Shown in pieces: positions 417-8,921 of a stretch of 46,228 nt of DNA (position 1 is its first letter; every line of letters begins with the position of its first letter). Source of the stretch: a virus. The translations under genes and the position numbers were made by a program. Where the stretch lies: positions 1-46,228 of the IMG/VR virus record IMGVR_UViG_3300042982_000004; one strand, 5' to 3'. The notes below the pieces were generated by a model. The model had not been told where the DNA came from. It saw only the letters and a program-made list of their open reading frames with translations, and ran no database searches.

Positions 417-670
417 TAGTTGTTCTCCATGAATTTGAACAGTTTTTCGATTTCGTTTTGACCAATCGCCAGAATACCATTGACAAACTCAGTGTTGAAG
501 GTGCGGCTCTTGCTGAAGTAGCCCTTCTTATCCACGATATAACTCGCCATCTTGATCGGAGAGAAACCACCTTCGGTCAAACCTTTTACAAGGTGGCTCT
601 TCTCAGCGTAATAGTAGGTGGTGCCGTCTTCGTCAACGAACTTGAAACGAGCGAGGTCTTTGTCAATCAT
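416..670 (-). CDS. Unknown 84-residue protein
   Basis: I do not recognise this protein. It is charged, with an aromatic patch (T-T-Y-Y-Y-A-E-K) near residue 20, a Lys-rich middle and a short C-terminal helix (IEKLFKFMENN). It has no membrane segment and no metal motif. The ATG at 670 has a GGAGAG ribosome site and overlaps the TAA of the NTase-like gene as TAATG, so translation is probably coupled to that gene. Its role may be tied to its neighbours, but nothing in the sequence shows how. Confidence 0.6.
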   Translation of the reverse strand: MIDKDLARFKFVDEDGTTYYYAEKSHLVKGLTEGGFSPIKMASYIVDKKGYFSKSRTFNTEFVNGILAIGQNEIEKLFKFMENN

Positions 671-1626
671 TAGTAGTTCTCTCCAGTGTATGGCTTCAGC
701 AGGTGTTGGTTCTTGTTGAACCGCTTGATGTAGTCATCTTCGCCCAATCCGTTGTACAGGTCAAGCACTTTTTGATAATTTTCCCAAGCATATTCACGGA
801 ACCAGCCAGAGGTGATAGACGTACACACCTTCATCAGAGCCATTTCAAAGCTCCAGCGGGCCGTTGGGCCACCTTCCTTACCCAAGCCATGAGGAATCTG
901 AGAGCGCTCAAGGGCGAGCACACAGGACTCTTCATAGACACCATTCAGGCGTGTCTCTTCACTGCAATCAAAGAACTTCTCCTTGGAGGTCATCACCTCA
1001 GAGCCTTCCTTCATGTAAGTTTTGTACGCAGGCCAGTTAGCACCTTGGATGTTGACCAAGGCCACGGCCTCATGAATGCTATCATGGTCATACACATATT
1101 GTACACCATCACCGTTGAAGAAGTCTTTGGAACTGACGTTAAGCTTAGGGTGTGCGTAGTTGTAGGACTCAGCTTCACGCATTGTTAGAAGCTCACGGTT
1201 GCGTTCAATCCATTCCACGGGCTGACCATTGGTCAACTTACCACGCAAGAACTTGATATCACTCATAGTCTTGAGGAAGTGAGGACTATTACGCTTGTAC
1301 TTGTGAGACTCTTTGATCAGCAATAGATCATAGTTGCTTGCTGTAGCCTTAGCTCCAGCATTCATGCAGTTGTACTCGATCAGGAACTGCTCAGCAGACG
1401 TACCCGGCCATGCCAATTCAAACTCGTAGTTCATGCCGTCCTTGTCACGTGCATGGTAATACTTACCTTGTTGGGTAGGCACTGCGAATTGCAGGTTAGC
1501 TTTATTGGCCTTGTGCCATGCAGTGAACTGCTCGATGGTGCAGATGAAGTCCCAATCCACAACCTTACGAACGCCTTCCAGTTCAGGGTTGTTTGCAACA
1601 AGAGCGCGGGAGCCGATAAGCAGCAT
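670..1626 (-). CDS. Nucleotidyltransferase-fold phage protein
   Basis: A 318-residue protein. The N-terminus reads L-I-G-S-R-A-L (residues 3-9), followed about 15 residues later by D-W-D-F (24-27). This resembles the G-S-x-x plus D-x-D pattern of the DNA polymerase beta nucleotidyltransferase superfamily. A later stretch (residues 100-130: L-L-L-I-K-E-S-H-K-Y-K, then H-F-x-K-T-x-x-D) matches phage proteins of the same type. What it transfers, and to what, is unknown. The ATG has a GAGGAAA ribosome site, and a promoter and terminator lie directly upstream, so this gene heads its own operon. Known: the superfamily covers CCA-adding enzymes, aminoglycoside NTases and toxin MNTs. Inferred: an NTP-dependent modification of host or phage RNA or protein. 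Confidence 0.55.
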   Translation of the reverse strand: MLLIGSRALVANNPELEGVRKVVDWDFICTIEQFTAWHKANKANLQFAVPTQQGKYYHARDKDGMNYEFELAWPGTSAEQFLIEYNCMNAGAKATASNYDLLLIKESHKYKRNSPHFLKTMSDIKFLRGKLTNGQPVEWIERNRELLTMREAESYNYAHPKLNVSSKDFFNGDGVQYVYDHDSIHEAVALVNIQGANWPAYKTYMKEGSEVMTSKEKFFDCSEETRLNGVYEESCVLALERSQIPHGLGKEGGPTARWSFEMALMKVCTSITSGWFREYAWENYQKVLDLYNGLGEDDYIKRFNKNQHLLKPYTGENY

Positions 1627-1705: not shown

Positions 1706-1966
1706 TTAGCAGCTTTGCGAGGAAGCGTTCCAGCCACTCTCACGCAGATCGCCAAACTCGTCTTCTTCACCGTCTTCCAGTGGAGTGTATGAGCCTCCCA
1801 TACCATACCCACCAAGGTTCATGGTGAACGACAGGTCATGTTCGTCAGCGATATTCTCAGCAGCCCACACAAGGTTCTGTGCTTCGTCAAGGAGGCGGTT
1901 AATCTTCTTGACAGCTTCCATCTTGACTGCGTTCTCTTTGTCTTTACCGTAGAGAGAGGCACCCAT
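1706..1966 (-). CDS. Small protein of the C-terminal W-x-x-S-S-x-x-C family (copy 1)
   Basis: An 86-residue protein. An amphipathic helix (residues about 10-45, with A-x-x-x-A heptad-like spacing) leads to A-D-E-H-D-L-S-F-T, a Gly/Tyr stretch, an acidic linker and the C-terminus G-W-N-A-S-S-Q-S-C. The last residue is Cys. Three other genes within 2.5 kb end the same way. I chose the ATG at 1966, which overlaps the upstream stop as TAATG; the longer reading from 1978 begins with TTG and has no ribosome site. The function is unknown. It is the last gene before a terminator. Confidence 0.65.
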   Translation of the reverse strand: MGASLYGKDKENAVKMEAVKKINRLLDEAQNLVWAAENIADEHDLSFTMNLGGYGMGGSYTPLEDGEEDEFGDLRESGWNASSQSC

Positions 1967-2385
1967 TACACGTTCCAACCGTAGTCAGAACCGTACTGAG
2001 CAGACTCTTCCCACTCACAACCACCAGACGCTTCCCACATTGCAGCAGGAGTGTACGTTTGGCTATCGCCAAAGCGGTCAGTGAAGGTGAAAGGCAGTTC
2101 CGCACCTTCAGCAGTGTCAGAAGCCCACTCCATCATGAAGTCCAGCAGAGTGTCGTAGTCCATGTCGAACGCACCATCTTCTGGCAGGTTCTTCAGCGCT
2201 ACGGCCAGTTGAGCCAGTTGCTCAACGTCGGTGCCTTCTAGGCCGTCAACATCGTAGCTCTCATAGCTGGAGAGTTGTTCACCCTCATAACCGAAGGAGC
2301 GAGTCACTTGCAGCAGGAATACACCACCGCCCAGTTCTACACGTGCGTTCTCGGTGCTGAAGCTTACATATTTACGTTCGGTCAT
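1966..2385 (-). CDS. Unknown acidic 139-residue protein
   Basis: I do not recognise this protein. It is strongly acidic and rich in Tyr and Gly. The N-terminus is beta-like (KYVSFSTENARVELGGGVFL). The middle is helical, with D-Y-D-T-L-L-D-F-M-M-E-W. The C-terminus, E-S-A-Q-Y-G-S-D-Y-G-W-N-V, faintly recalls the aromatic tails of the neighbouring W-x-x-S-S-x-x-C proteins but lacks their Ser-Ser and Cys. The ATG at 2385 has an AAGGAG ribosome site 8 bases upstream. It sits between two members of that family, so it may work with them; this is inference. Confidence 0.6.
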   Translation of the reverse strand: MTERKYVSFSTENARVELGGGVFLLQVTRSFGYEGEQLSSYESYDVDGLEGTDVEQLAQLAVALKNLPEDGAFDMDYDTLLDFMMEWASDTAEGAELPFTFTDRFGDSQTYTPAAMWEASGGCEWEESAQYGSDYGWNV

Positions 2386-2403
2386 ATCAGTTCTCCTTTG
2401 TGA

Positions 2404-2664
2404 TTAGCAGTCTTGACTGGAGTAAGACCAGTCTTCTTTGTTTTGCCAAGAGAACTCATCGTATCCCTTGGAGTAGTAGAACACAATGTCAGCGTTCCTT
2501 GCGATTTCCTCGGCCTCTCGTACCAAGTTGTCGATGTTACGCTTGATTGCAGCCAGAGCTTTGACAGCTTCTGGTCTGTTGCGCACAACCGCTCGGGCAT
2601 GTTCTGCCTTGGCGAGAGCCAACTGTCGTTCAAGTGCTTCGATTGGTTCAGGCAGTGTTGGCAT
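2404..2664 (-). CDS. Small protein of the W-x-x-S-S-x-x-C family (copy 2)
   Basis: An 86-residue protein. It has a long Ala-rich helix (residues about 9-55), then A-R-N-A-D-I-V-F-Y-Y, an aromatic/acidic stretch (G-Y-D-E-F-S-W), and the C-terminus D-W-S-Y-S-S-Q-D-C. The start is set at the ATG at 2664, because GGAGG lies 5 bases upstream; earlier in-frame starts would absorb that ribosome site. It shares the tail and the preceding helix-plus-beta pattern with the genes ending at 1706, 2724 and 3968. No catalytic motif is visible. Confidence 0.65.
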   Translation of the reverse strand: MPTLPEPIEALERQLALAKAEHARAVVRNRPEAVKALAAIKRNIDNLVREAEEIARNADIVFYYSKGYDEFSWQNKEDWSYSSQDC

Positions 2665-2723
2665 CTTATCCTCCATAAATCTGTTGGGAAGGTCTTCCGA
2701 CCCGTCCCATGCTATACCGGGCA

Positions 2724-3182
2724 TCAGCAGTACATGCTACTGGAATCCCAATCAACAGCGTCAATCAGACGGAAGTCGTTGGTAGATCCGTTTACAGTGA
2801 TGTTGGCTGGCAGGTCATACTTAGTTGCCAGTTCCATCACTTCTTGCAGAACAACTTGAACATTCTCGCGAAGAGTTGCGATGCGTGCGACGGCAGCTTG
2901 ACGCTCTGCATTGTATACACGATACTCTTCTTCGAATGGTCCGTCAATGTAAGCTTTCACTTCATCAATTGTGTAGGAGGCTGGAGTAAGCTCAAAGCTA
3001 TAGTCTTCATAGCCAAGGCGCTCAGAGTCTACATACACGTAGTCGATATACTTATCGTTTTCGTTATATGTGTTGACCTCTTGACGCTCAACTTCTACAC
3101 GTGCTGCACCTTCCAAGCTCAGTTGCCCAGTGGTGACAGCCATACCAATATACATCAGGTTGTGCATTGCATACTTACTCAT
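2724..3182 (-). CDS. Protein of the W-x-x-S-S-x-x-C family (copy 3, longer N-terminus)
   Basis: A 152-residue protein. The N-terminal 90 residues are not shared with the other copies; they include a small Ala/Gly helix and an acidic, Tyr-rich region. The last 65 residues repeat the family pattern: a helix (R-I-A-T-L-R-E-N-V-Q), then A-T-K-Y-D-L-P, a beta strand, and the C-terminus D-W-D-S-S-S-M-Y-C. The ATG overlaps the MazG stop as ATGA. The fusion of an extra domain to a constant C-terminal module suggests that the module is an interaction or targeting unit. Confidence 0.65.
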   Translation of the reverse strand: MSKYAMHNLMYIGMAVTTGQLSLEGAARVEVERQEVNTYNENDKYIDYVYVDSERLGYEDYSFELTPASYTIDEVKAYIDGPFEEEYRVYNAERQAAVARIATLRENVQVVLQEVMELATKYDLPANITVNGSTNDFRLIDAVDWDSSSMYC

Positions 3183-3592
3183 GCTTTCTTACCCCCTTCG
3201 GCTAGACGATTTGCGATCTTGTGATCTTCACGTTTGTCATTGTAGTACAGCTTCTCAATGATTGCACCACTCAAGTCCCAACCTTCGTGACCAGCAAGGT
3301 CGAAGGCACGGATGATAGCATCCGCAAGCTCTACTTCTGGCATTGGACGGTGTGGCAGTTTGTCGTCCATCAAGCCCTTACGAACACCCTCAGTGGCTTC
3401 ACTCACCTCTGAGTGCACCAAGGCCAGCTTGGACAGAATCAGGGTTGTGTCGCCCTTTGGGAAGGCTTCGTTGGTGCTGATGTTCTTCCACCAACCAGCG
3501 GTAACGTTACCACGATAGATGGTGTCCTGCAAGTGGCGAATGCTATCTGCGATACGTGCCACTTCAAATACTTCTAGGTTGTTGATGCTCAA
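3179..3592 (-). CDS. MazG-like nucleotide pyrophosphohydrolase
   Basis: A 137-residue protein. The metal-binding helices are visible as H-S-E-V-S-E-A (ExxE type, residues about 60-66) and E-V-E-L-A-D-A-I-I-R (ExxD type, about 86-95), typical of all-alpha NTP pyrophosphatases of the MazG/iMazG superfamily. Known: such enzymes hydrolyse (d)NTPs to (d)NMPs, cleaning aberrant nucleotides, tuning pools or lowering ppGpp. Here the ribonucleotide reductase and ThyX genes lie 3-7 kb upstream on the same strand, so a nucleotide-pool role is likely. It overlaps both neighbours by 4 bases (ATGA). Confidence 0.8.
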   Translation of the reverse strand: MSINNLEVFEVARIADSIRHLQDTIYRGNVTAGWWKNISTNEAFPKGDTTLILSKLALVHSEVSEATEGVRKGLMDDKLPHRPMPEVELADAIIRAFDLAGHEGWDLSGAIIEKLYYNDKREDHKIANRLAEGGKKA

Positions 3593-3957
3593 ATTTCCTC
3601 TCCTTCATCTGGTTTATTATATTCGTCAAAGAACTCGTTCACACGTCGGAAGTATTGATCACTCTCGACAAGGAACTCAGCCCAAACACGAACGTTTCTC
3701 AGGTAAACCTCTTCGTTCCAGTCACCTTCTTGGTAGGTATCAAACCATTCGAACTTGGTGTCCTGACTAACGTACTGTTTTTTCTCGTACAGGTTGATGA
3801 TGTTGTTTGCCCATTCAGTATAGCCTTTGCCCAGCAGCCAGTATGCCCAACTACCAACAGGCCAGTTGTCCATGAAATAGTCAGTGAAACCTTCACCAGC
3901 ATCCATTTCCCAGTTGCGGATAGCTTCAACCATAGCGTCTACAGTACGTTCGATCAT
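3589..3957 (-). CDS. Unknown 122-residue aromatic acidic protein
   Basis: I do not recognise this protein. It is unusually rich in Trp and Tyr (for example D-N-W-P-V-G-S-W-A-Y-W near residue 30) and has an acidic C-terminus (E-Y-N-K-P-D-E-G-E-E-I). It looks helical and soluble, with no membrane segment. It is coupled to the MazG-like gene by an ATGA overlap. No function can be assigned. Confidence 0.6.
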   Translation of the reverse strand: MIERTVDAMVEAIRNWEMDAGEGFTDYFMDNWPVGSWAYWLLGKGYTEWANNIINLYEKKQYVSQDTKFEWFDTYQEGDWNEEVYLRNVRVWAEFLVESDQYFRRVNEFFDEYNKPDEGEEI

Positions 3958-3967
3958 GTTCTACTCC

Positions 3968-4162
3968 TTAGCAGTTGTAAGAGCTAGACTGCCAACCCGA
4001 GTAGGTGGCAGTGGTGTCATAATTCTGACCACCTTCCAGAGTAATGTCAAATGGAATCTCAAACTCGTCTGAGATAGCACGTGCTTCAGCGTGCAGCACC
4101 TGAATGGAGTGCAGCAGGCCAGCGATGATGGTGGTTGCTTCTTCATGGGAATTGATAGACAT
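3968..4162 (-). CDS. Small protein of the W-x-x-S-S-x-x-C family (copy 4, minimal)
   Basis: A 64-residue protein, the shortest member, which probably shows the bare domain: one helix (residues about 6-32), then S-D-E-F-E-I-P-F-D-I-T, a Gly/Tyr/Thr linker and the C-terminus G-W-Q-S-S-S-Y-N-C. The ATG at 4162 has AAGGAG 7 bases upstream; the longer frame upstream would start at GTG inside the glutaredoxin gene. It lies directly downstream of glutaredoxin, which is suggestive given the terminal Cys, but a link is only inference. Confidence 0.7.
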   Translation of the reverse strand: MSINSHEEATTIIAGLLHSIQVLHAEARAISDEFEIPFDITLEGGQNYDTTATYSGWQSSSYNC

Positions 4163-4172
4163 TTGACTCTCC

Positions 4173-4400
4173 TTAAACGAGTTGATCGATAGTTGCGAAG
4201 GTGAAACCCTTACCACCCTGAACGATCAGAGGGAAGGTGCGGAAACCCATCAGGCCCACTTCATCGAGTGCATCCATCAGGTCTTCCATTGTGTAATCTT
4301 TGTCCAGTTGTTTGTACTGGAACTCAATGTTGCGAGACTTTAGCACAGCTTTGGCCTGTTCGCAAGAGGCACATTGAGATTTTCCGTAAATCGTTACCAC
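4173..4400 (-). CDS. Glutaredoxin
   Basis: A 75-residue protein with a thioredoxin fold of glutaredoxin/NrdH size. The redox motif C-A-S-C is at residues 10-13, the cis-Pro motif appears in F-R-T-F-P-L, and the following G-G-K-G-F-T-F resembles the glutathione-binding turn. Known: such phage proteins reduce the disulfide formed in class Ia ribonucleotide reductase. NrdA and NrdB are encoded at 6.1-8.9 kb on the same strand, which supports that role. The ribosome site AAGGAG lies 7 bases upstream. Confidence 0.9.
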   Translation of the reverse strand: MVTIYGKSQCASCEQAKAVLKSRNIEFQYKQLDKDYTMEDLMDALDEVGLMGFRTFPLIVQGGKGFTFATIDQLV

Positions 4401-4728: not shown

Positions 4729-5066
4729 TATTGATCCTCCTTCAACTCTTTGGTTTTGAACTCAATGTCGCGGATGTGACTATACCACATCTCAGTCATT
4801 TGTCTACGCATATCTTCCAGTTCCTGAATCATCAGGCTCACCTTGGTCAGACGCTTTTCGAAGCTCTTCTGATCGTAGGCACAGAAGTCTAGCTTAACTG
4901 GCTCTCCGTGGCAAGCACGGAATTGAACGTAAGCTTCCAGATCAGGCGTGATCTTACCCTGATACCCAACGTGCAGGTTTTTCACCAGAGGTGTCTCGAC
5001 CTGAACCACCATGCTACCAGTTTCATCGGCAGATGGCGAGAGGAATTGCTTGCTAACGTATCTCAT
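4728..5066 (-). CDS. Unknown 112-residue protein with C-terminal coiled coil
   Basis: I do not recognise this protein. The N-terminal half is beta-like; the C-terminal 50 residues (from about residue 62) form a charged helix or coiled coil (L-M-I-Q-E-L-E-D-M-R-R-Q-M-T-E-M). The ATG at 5066 has an AAGGAGG site close upstream; the longer frame from 5114 would start inside the previous small gene. A sigma70-like promoter at 5142-5170 could drive it directly. Confidence 0.6.
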   Translation of the reverse strand: MRYVSKQFLSPSADETGSMVVQVETPLVKNLHVGYQGKITPDLEAYVQFRACHGEPVKLDFCAYDQKSFEKRLTKVSLMIQELEDMRRQMTEMWYSHIRDIEFKTKELKEDQ

Positions 5067-5194
5067 ACGCCTCCTTGAATCAACAGAGCACCAACCACCA
5101 TCCCAACAACACACACTGGAACGTAGTCTTTAGGGAGGGTGATGATACCGAGAGCACACCCCATTGTCAAGCCCCAACCCATAATAATTTCCAT
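5063..5194 (-). CDS. Possible tiny membrane protein
   Basis: A 43-residue frame with two hydrophobic stretches (I-I-M-G-W-G-L-T-M-G-C-A-L-G and V-C-V-V-G-M-V-V-G-A-L-L), an AAGGTG ribosome site and an ATGA overlap with the next gene. This fits a two-pass membrane protein. Against it, a good promoter (5142-5170) lies inside the frame, so the stretch could be mostly regulatory. Both readings can be true. Confidence 0.45.
   Translation of the reverse strand: MEIIMGWGLTMGCALGIITLPKDYVPVCVVGMVVGALLIQGGV
5142..5170 (-). promoter_or_regulatory. Sigma70-like promoter
   Basis: Leftward. TTGACA (5170-5165), 17-bp spacer, TATCAT (5147-5142). The -10 box sits between the arms of a GGGTG/CACCC dyad. It is placed to transcribe the genes from 5066 down to the glutaredoxin. 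Confidence 0.6.
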
Positions 5195-5196
5195 TT

Positions 5197-5418
5197 TTAA
5201 TTCACCTTGTCCAAGTAAAAGCCTTCCCAAATACACAGCTTCATAATTTCGTCACCGTAGGTGAAGTCCTCAGTGAAAACGTACACAGTCTTTTTGGTGT
5301 TGCTCACGTACCGCTTCTCTTTCCACTCACCCTTACCTTGTCGCATCATACAGCCTGCAACAACAGCGTCAACCTTTGCAACCATGATTCCGTTGTTAGT
5401 GCGGATGTAGTAGGCCAT
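5197..5418 (-). CDS. Unknown 73-residue protein
   Basis: I do not recognise this protein. It is a small basic-to-neutral protein beginning M-A-Y-Y-I-R-T-N-N-G and containing K-E-K-R-Y-V-S-N-T-K-K-T-V-Y-V-F, which looks like a compact beta fold. The stop is 2 bases before the next small frame, and it follows the 80-residue gene by 1 base. No function is assigned. Confidence 0.55.
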   Translation of the reverse strand: MAYYIRTNNGIMVAKVDAVVAGCMMRQGKGEWKEKRYVSNTKKTVYVFTEDFTYGDEIMKLCIWEGFYLDKVN

Positions 5419-7869: not shown

Positions 7870-8921
7870 TCAAGTTCTCCTTTGTCAATATACCCTCTAA
7901 TAAACCCTTGAGTGTCCCAAGAACTCTCATACTCCATACCCATACCCGGAGTGAAGAAGTCCACCATCTTGTACGAGTCAGTTCCCAACTTAAACCATTC
8001 TGTGATTGGAGAAGTTGCTTCAGGGAAAGGCAAGTCGAGGCCGAGCCTCTCCGCAAAGACGTTCAAACGAACTTTGATGTAGTTCTTGAAGTCATCCTTT
8101 GTCATCCCGTTCAGCGTATCTTCCAAGAACGCAAGATCAATGATCAAACATTCATGTTCATATGCATATTGAATCGCTTTGTAAATCTGTTCAACACGCT
8201 TAGTGTCTTCACGTAGAGGACGACCAAGTTCTTTATAGTGTTGGTTGATTGCCCAAGCAGCAGCGAATCCATGCAAGTCTTCATCAATAGCAGATTGGTT
8301 GGTGCCTCTCACTACAACAGGAAGTTTGTTGTATCCGTTAGATTGGAAACTCTTCAAGATTGCAAAGCTGGCAAACAACAGTGCTGTTTCAGTCATCGAG
8401 AATACGATAACAGATAGTAGTTTATCTTCACCAGACAGCACACTCTCAAGCCATTCCACACGTGCAGCCAACTCAGGGTTTGCAGCGTATGCACGGTAGT
8501 GCTCGTCTTTATCCAATCCAAGTTGCACGTTAAGTTGGTTGTAGAAGCGAGCGTGAACTTGAAGTTCGAATGCAGCGAATGCCGCAGCCATTGCTTTAGC
8601 TTCTGGAGTTGGGAACACTTTGATGAACAAGCCATTCCAGAACTCTTCACCAACAATCAACTCATACTTGAGGAACAGTTGGAGAACAAACTTTACAGCG
8701 TGTAGTTGAGCAGGTGTTAGATCAAACAGAAGTTGCATTCTGTCTAGTTCAACTTTCATTTCTGTGTTAGTCCAGAACTGTTTGTCAAACTGTTTATCAG
8801 CAAATTCAAAGAACTGTGGGTAGACAGTAGCATAACTATCCGTCTGTGTCATGATGCGTGTCTTAGCATCAAAGTCGAACGGTAGCCCCATTGCTACCGC
8901 TTCTAGTTGCTCAGTGGACAT
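7866..8921 (-). CDS. nrdB: Ribonucleotide reductase small subunit (ferritin-like)
   Basis: A 351-residue protein that supplies the radical to NrdA. Recognisable elements are the H-A-R-F-Y segment with the candidate radical Tyr four residues after a His, M-T-E-T-A-L-L-F-A-S-F-A (second helix-pair Glu), and E-D-L-H-G-F (E-x-x-H ligand pair). One oddity is that the first ligand helix reads F-E-L-Q-V-H, so the Glu is four residues before the His rather than three. The first carboxylate appears to be a Glu (K-Y-E-L-I-V-G-E-E) where E. coli has Asp84. The order nrdB then nrdA with a GTGA overlap suggests balanced synthesis. Confidence 0.93.
   Translation of the reverse strand: MSTEQLEAVAMGLPFDFDAKTRIMTQTDSYATVYPQFFEFADKQFDKQFWTNTEMKVELDRMQLLFDLTPAQLHAVKFVLQLFLKYELIVGEEFWNGLFIKVFPTPEAKAMAAAFAAFELQVHARFYNQLNVQLGLDKDEHYRAYAANPELAARVEWLESVLSGEDKLLSVIVFSMTETALLFASFAILKSFQSNGYNKLPVVVRGTNQSAIDEDLHGFAAAWAINQHYKELGRPLREDTKRVEQIYKAIQYAYEHECLIIDLAFLEDTLNGMTKDDFKNYIKVRLNVFAERLGLDLPFPEATSPITEWFKLGTDSYKMVDFFTPGMGMEYESSWDTQGFIRGYIDKGELE

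Follow-up and report, generated by a model that had tools for sequence, protein, structure and literature searches.

Four neighbouring phage genes encode small proteins that all finish with W-x-x-S-S-x-x-C. What does a constant tail do on proteins whose bodies differ, and does the phage encode something that recognises it? The genes lie on the minus strand of IMG/VR record IMGVR_UViG_3300042982_000004, of which the 46,228 nucleotides analysed here are called the window, and belong to an Otagovirus-like Pseudomonas phage. Their coordinates, lengths and shared C-terminal pattern (copies 1–4, Table 1) are as described in an initial annotation made from the DNA alone. Exactly four of the 394 open reading frames (ORFs) of at least 40 amino acids in the window carry this ending, while residue shuffling predicts 0.0055, which confirms the observation. 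Evidence given below links these tail genes to a gene for a predicted nucleotidyltransferase (NTase) and suggests that phages possess an as yet unrecognised system, with many small proteins recognised, and probably tagged chemically, by a single enzyme.

The next gene downstream of copy 1 encodes a full-length protein of the DUF7277-DUF7275 type, hereafter the enzyme. Using DUF7275 queries only, 81 loci were fetched. Tail ORFs were found near the enzyme at 75 of these with the strict pattern and at 78 when the ends were relaxed; after clustering of the enzymes at 60% identity, 27 of 28 clusters have tails. Their placement is one-sided: 186 of the 1224 same-strand ORFs within 4 kb upstream of the enzyme have tails, as do 4 of 1040 downstream on that strand, and none was found among 1862 ORFs elsewhere on the enzyme strand or 3877 antisense ORFs. 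Against these 186 and 4 tail ends, shuffling all 8003 neighbourhood ORFs gives an expectation of 0.8. Up to five tail genes stand in tandem beside one enzyme gene, and no other neighbour family reaches more than 20 of the 81 loci.

The linkage also holds when approached from the tail. A tail-first scan used a DNA pattern encoding G-W-x-x-S-S-x-x-C-stop that takes no account of the protein body, and 80 loci were read among the matches listed, to which the following counts apply. The motif is carried by 29 ORF ends (at least 45 amino acids). DUF7275 is encoded on 11 of the 13 new contigs with a motif-ended ORF, compared with 0 of 48 control contigs, in which no such ORF ends in the motif, and in all 11 positive contigs the tail ORFs are on the enzyme strand within the ~3.5 kb fetched around the enzyme. 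The two exceptions are a 266,899-base contig and an ORF that resembles a chance one. Before these two unbiased tests, the genomes first reached through tail proteins and read (Otagovirus, Tevenvirinae, Twarogvirinae, Erwinia jumbo phages, Xanthomonas phage X1 and Myxococcus phage Mx1) were each found to have a DUF7275 gene close to a tail gene on the same strand. Felix O1 and T4 were rejected as carriers, having neither tail genes nor the enzyme. It is very probable that the pairing of tail genes and enzyme is functional. Of the explanations of the tail offered in the initial annotation, a single shared partner or a modified C-terminus gains support, since the DUF7277-DUF7275 gene alone consistently adjoins the tail genes.

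The unit common to the four proteins is a domain of ~60–80 amino acids and not the tail alone, because all four match phrog_899. The profile E-values for copies 1–4 are 1.3e-19, 1.2e-9, 0.087 and 2e-6 (per genome, 1.5e-20, 1.5e-10, 2.6e-3 and 3.8e-8), and the matches cover the C-terminal part of the profile, about positions 130–221 of 221, tail included. Copy 3 matches phrog_899 weakly but reaches an E-value of about 4e-12 with the family hidden Markov model (HMM) built in this analysis. In this domain a long helix leads into a short strand, after which come a Gly/Tyr/acidic linker and the tail. The helix claimed in the initial annotation, with A-x-x-x-[DE]-[LI]-x-F after it, is real in the alignments and in the AlphaFold2 (AF2) model of copy 1, which has a helix at residues 9–43 and strands at 47–49, 58–61 and 78–81. 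The tail Trp lies within the last strand and the final five residues have no regular structure; the confidence of the model (predicted local distance difference test, pLDDT, 75; predicted template modelling score, pTM, 0.55) is too weak to decide whether the tail is buried. The initial annotation knew of no named family with this tail. phrog_899 (PHROGs v4) does already catalogue all four proteins, and it has no recorded function, partner or motif.

Constraint on the tail is concentrated in few residues. In 174 aligned members from the 81 loci, Trp, the Ser three residues after it (W+3) and the Cys are each present in 173 and the second Ser in 131, frequencies somewhat biased toward the tail because the tail is part of the HMM behind the alignment, which favours members that keep it. 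The single departing row resembles a chance ORF. Thr replaces the W+3 Ser in none of the 173 family members. The near-invariant core is W-x-x-S plus a Cys mostly 2–4 residues past the Ser; Ala or Asn can stand in place of the second Ser. The claim that Cys is always last stands for the four window proteins, and in the wider family Cys is usually the last residue, with exceptions such as ...SSTQECN, ...SSDSCF and ...SSTAICNGY. The motif is also found internally and in tandem: one subfamily has it doubled (e.g. DWLSSSC...WQSSSC), and one protein ends NWDSSDC...HWDSSDCEY. Such copies fit a site that is recognised or modified. With the last 12 residues removed, clustering of the bodies at E 1e-5 yields 23 groups, the largest with 142 of 203 members; stricter cut-offs give 23–36 clusters, and loose BLAST joins most members through the helix. 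Certain tail proteins have little similarity beyond the tail.

The enzyme is predicted to have an NTase fold. DUF7277 (PF23942; E 6e-22, 78.6 bits) and DUF7275 (PF23940; E 6.8e-71, 238.5 bits) are both found by Pfam above the curated cut-off of 27 bits. Among 60 relatives G5, S6, D24 and D26 are invariant and E68 is conserved in at least 90%; GS...D-x-D with E68 as third acid is the layout of the pol-beta NTases. Confidence in the AF2 model of the enzyme is high (pLDDT 92.2, pTM 0.88). In a Foldseek search of PDB the best E-value is 0.047; CCA-adding enzymes rank first, and the matches, all weak, include the NTases LinB, TglT (probability 0.80) and LnuA (probability 0.82) together with unrelated folds. 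Matches in BFVD are further DUF7275 proteins, among them A0A3G5AJ90 (Sylvanvirus) and A0A3G5AE53 (Satyrvirus) of giant viruses, and, ranked lower, a poly(A) polymerase-like protein of African swine fever virus (probability 0.99, E 0.03). The C-terminal half is strongly conserved as well (R150, Y157, H159-P160, D180-H181-D182-x-x-H185, E232-E233 and K266-VCTSITSGW-x-R277), and no known relative of this DUF7275 part was found. A DUF7275 relative is present in 717 of 50,697 phage records, the model phage RB69 with RB69ORF134c among them. In 84,980 genomes of bacteria and archaea there is one relative, on a contig derived from a metagenome, where a phrog_899 match again lies beside the enzyme.

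A sister clade of the enzyme has small partner proteins of another kind. Remote relatives of the phrog_6944 type, from phages of Gordonia, Streptomyces, Mycobacterium, Vibrio and Curvibacter, have no W..SS..C tails; another small-protein family adjoined the enzyme in all six of the first examined. At 77 of the 80 loci (L248–L327) then assembled for this clade, members of this second partner family (phrog_8206/18295/13591) stand beside the enzyme in 1–5 copies, none antisense, and in the other three the contig stops soon after the enzyme. In Gordonia phage ClubL, for example, gp16 goes with gp18 and gp19. The two enzyme clades are related with 100% hhalign probability. Between the two partner families hhalign finds no relation (probability 0.2%), the best local match being the motif itself, GWNASS to GWYASF. 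In a quick tree the branch that separates enzymes by partner type has a Shimodaira-Hasegawa-like approximate likelihood ratio test (SH-aLRT) support of 100. The only invariant residue of the second family is the Ser of G-x-Y-x-S-[YWF] (-x-G), present in 178 of 178 distinct members. It is internal, and stays constant, never Thr, while its aromatic neighbours vary. No conserved Cys was found among the aligned members. In both families the Ser sits three residues past an often aromatic position.

We propose that the tail proteins and the DUF7277-DUF7275 protein form a module in which one NTase modifies the near-invariant Ser of several partners, a reading to which we give a probability of about 0.4. 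The enzyme would recognise the W-x-x-S...C peptide shown on the helix-plus-strand domain and transfer a nucleoside monophosphate, adenosine monophosphate (AMP) or another, to the W+3 Ser; nucleotidylylation of this very residue, argued from conservation and by analogy, is put forward tentatively. Individual functions would reside in the variable bodies or N-terminal parts, and modification would toggle them on or off. More tentative still is a wider scheme of soluble many-to-one tagging, where the two-domain NTase would install Ser nucleotidylylation on W-x-x-S...C, possibly followed by a Ser-Cys ring made via DUF7275, and sister enzymes would serve other partners on their invariant Ser. Physical recognition, nucleotide transfer, the Ser as acceptor, any effect on the host and the purpose of the system are what we infer from the conservation and linkage described above.

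Several observations weigh against this proposal. No PDB entry is a sequence relative of the enzyme or matches its fold in Foldseek at E < 1e-3, so the NTase assignment rests on the motif, the domain layout and weak fold matches, and no third catalytic acid could be made out in the sister clade. The conserved Cys is left unexplained by Ser nucleotidylylation alone, and the tail frequencies carry the bias noted above. The NTase targets in PII and glutamine synthetase are Tyr, not Ser, and the same is true of HepT. Three of the 81 enzyme loci have no tails. One (L096) is cut just upstream, and the other two, L075 and L092, have an enzyme without tail genes nearby: L075, from a T4-like phage, has an apparently intact enzyme (7998–8915) and no phrog_899 match in the whole record, and the L092 record holds a second DUF7275 copy. 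Conversely, the 266,899-base contig (L122), of jumbo-phage size, encodes a tail protein ending WRSSSWSC and no enzyme detectable with a 50-row enzyme profile; another enzyme may serve this tail, or the contig may be incomplete.

The tail could instead be a docking motif, with exchangeable tail subunits bringing the NTase to host proteins or RNA, so that the target and not the tail is modified. The many partners per enzyme, additional N-terminal parts like the one in copy 3, the tail end without regular structure in the low-confidence copy 1 model and the presence among the PDB fold matches of NTases that act on RNA or small molecules would all suit such an adaptor. A docking peptide need not fix a Ser, yet Thr is absent from 173 members of one family and 178 of the other, and in the second family the Ser is internal and constant amid varying aromatic neighbours. 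Modification of the Ser is preferred over docking alone mainly because two partner families of one enzyme family each keep one unreplaceable Ser, and we regard the adaptor as possible though on balance unlikely. Another route, akin to ribosomally synthesised and post-translationally modified peptides, would have the Ser nucleotidylylated, DUF7275 eliminating to dehydroalanine and the Cys adding to give a C-terminal thioether ring. Lanthionine and AviCys (aminovinyl-cysteine) rings have Ser-Cys spacings similar to the 2–4 residues usual in the tails, and multicopy small proteins beside a single enzyme, repeated motif copies and a large, strongly conserved second enzyme domain would agree with it. 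This chemistry is nonetheless improbable: a conserved Cys is missing from the second partner family, known precursors of such peptides adjoin a modifying enzyme of LanB/LanM/LanD type and no second enzyme family recurs across the loci (the neighbours were only partly scanned against Pfam), and a constant tail on a variable body reverses the usual leader/core layout.

About as improbable is a toxin-antitoxin-like arrangement in which the tail proteins inhibit growth until modified by the NTase. A small protein adjoining an NTase has its precedent in MntA, but no HEPN or other toxin family is found in the tail proteins, up to five of them stand in tandem per enzyme, the system is almost wholly viral with a single relative in the bacterial and archaeal genomes, and no PADLOC anti-phage defence profile matches the enzyme. 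(The best PADLOC match of a tail protein, E 0.003 on the helical stretch, was judged to be chance.) Were the tail simply the structural or metal-binding end of a domain and the DUF7275 linkage a co-inherited gene block, the Trp in strand 78–81 of the copy 1 model and the conserved Cys would be accounted for. Other neighbours differ between lineages, though, each enzyme clade has a partner family of its own, and the motif is also internal and on diverged bodies, all of which makes this very improbable; the metal role raised in the initial annotation found no positive evidence. The redox role it had also raised, founded on the glutaredoxin gene (4173–4400, PF00462) adjoining copy 4, is hardly credible. 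Only 5 of the 81 loci, all from close relatives of the window phage, have a glutaredoxin relative in the enzyme neighbourhood, and the link is rejected because of these counts; moreover, the glutaredoxin gene of phage VCM is a few genes from ribonucleotide reductase genes, and the second partner family lacks the Cys.

Modification of a partner Ser by the DUF7277-DUF7275 enzyme can be set beside known systems. MntA (GS-x10-D-x-D) modifies a Tyr of the neighbouring HepT with AMPs (PMC7641770). There, too, a GS...D-x-D NTase stands next to a small, helical protein in which one hydroxyl residue is conserved. The phage partner is not HEPN (no Pfam match near the cut-off, and R-x4-H-x-Y absent from the four sequences), the acceptor would be Ser instead of Tyr, and the phage module has many partners per enzyme, an extra DUF7275 domain and confinement to viruses. 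In GlyGly-CTERM/rhombosortase and MYXO-CTERM/myxosortase a short C-terminal signature goes with one dedicated enzyme (PMC3237569, PMC11980579); these pairs, and PEP-CTERM/exosortase, resemble the phage module in having a constant short signature on many bodies. Unlike those tags, the window proteins stop at the signature Cys, with no transmembrane segment or basic end after it; the phage enzyme is no membrane protease, the phage tag can be internal or repeated, and the phage genes are adjacent and phage-borne. The pol-beta RNA NTases (CCA-adding enzyme, RlaP, TglT/MenT) share GS...DxD and weak fold similarity with the phage enzyme, which differs in having no significant sequence or fold match to them and in its linkage to small proteins. 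For RlaP of jumbo phages a role in RNA end repair is predicted (PMC7824862); RNA ligase was not a common neighbour of the enzyme in the 81 loci.

Like phrog_899, the DUF7277-DUF7275 group (PF23942/PF23940; phrog_2141, phrog_6944) that includes the enzyme has no function or partner on record, and no prior description of the tail family or the enzyme was found in the literature searched, in which subscription papers and preprints were thinly covered. Through the linkage, two sets of uncharacterised phage genes become a single module of enzyme and partners, for which a candidate residue can be named. If the Ser is indeed modified, the modification would be a new one for phage proteins and each phage would have several partners, whose variable parts would each point to a host or phage target of their own.

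Table 1. Coordinates of the enzyme gene and tail genes in the window, and of second-family partners at six sister-clade loci (L242–L247)
Feature	Coordinates	Strand	Basis
Predicted nucleotidyltransferase, N-terminal DUF7277 (GS-x17-D-x-D) and C-terminal DUF7275; proposed enzyme	670..1626	-	Pfam, phrog_2141, conserved residues, AF2
Tail protein 1, 86 amino acids, phrog_899, end GWNASSQSC	1706..1966	-	sequence, profile matches, AF2
Tail WNASSQSC codons (tail protein 1)	1709..1732	-	sequence
Probable fifth, diverged member, 139 amino acids, phrog_17937, between copies 1 and 2	1966..2385	-	weak; family HMM E 0.005
Tail protein 2, 86 amino acids, end DWSYSSQDC	2404..2664	-	sequence, profile matches
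Tail WSYSSQDC codons (tail protein 2)	2407..2430	-	sequence
Tail protein 3, 152 amino acids, phrog_23943, extra N-terminal region, end DWDSSSMYC	2724..3182	-	sequence, profile matches
Tail WDSSSMYC codons (tail protein 3)	2727..2750	-	sequence
Tail protein 4, 64 amino acids, end GWQSSSYNC	3968..4162	-	sequence, profile matches
Tail WQSSSYNC codons (tail protein 4)	3971..3994	-	sequence
Second partner family members	L242:4385-4738		
Second partner family members	L243:4261-4596, 5053-5364		
Second partner family members	L244:4468-4938, 4935-5378		
Second partner family member	L245:4109-5201		
Second partner family member	L246:2827-3123		
Second partner family member	L247:3922-4287		

The gene between copies 1 and 2 likely encodes a diverged fifth member of the family, judging from an internal W-E-A-S-G-G-C at 2017–2037; its homologue in locus L028, which has W-E-S-S-G-G-C, is picked up by the family HMM.

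Relatives of the enzyme are labelled 'putative nucleotidyltransferase' in some Acinetobacter phage annotations, and that of Acinetobacter phage Ac42 (L025:3536-4771) is extended at its N-terminus by roughly 100 residues. T4 nrdC.11, annotated as a nucleotidyltransferase, was rejected as a relative, T4 being without a DUF7275 match. The enzyme match in MG065650.1 (Campylobacter phage B15) has 49.2% identity, the same as ~150 kb Escherichia/Klebsiella phages, and its host label may be wrong.

A PPP-type Ser/Thr phosphatase-like gene is near the enzyme (~+1.4 kb) in 11 jumbo-phage loci (among L046–L062 and L090), and a Nudix gene is ~2.4 kb from it in 20 T4-like loci; L002:25628-26377 is listed with these phosphatase/Nudix neighbours. 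Such genes are possible erasers of the modification, or just lineage neighbours. In the sister clade, the Mycobacterium prophage prophiGD54-2 has a cysteine dioxygenase gene (L245:2514-2981) three genes before the enzyme relative.

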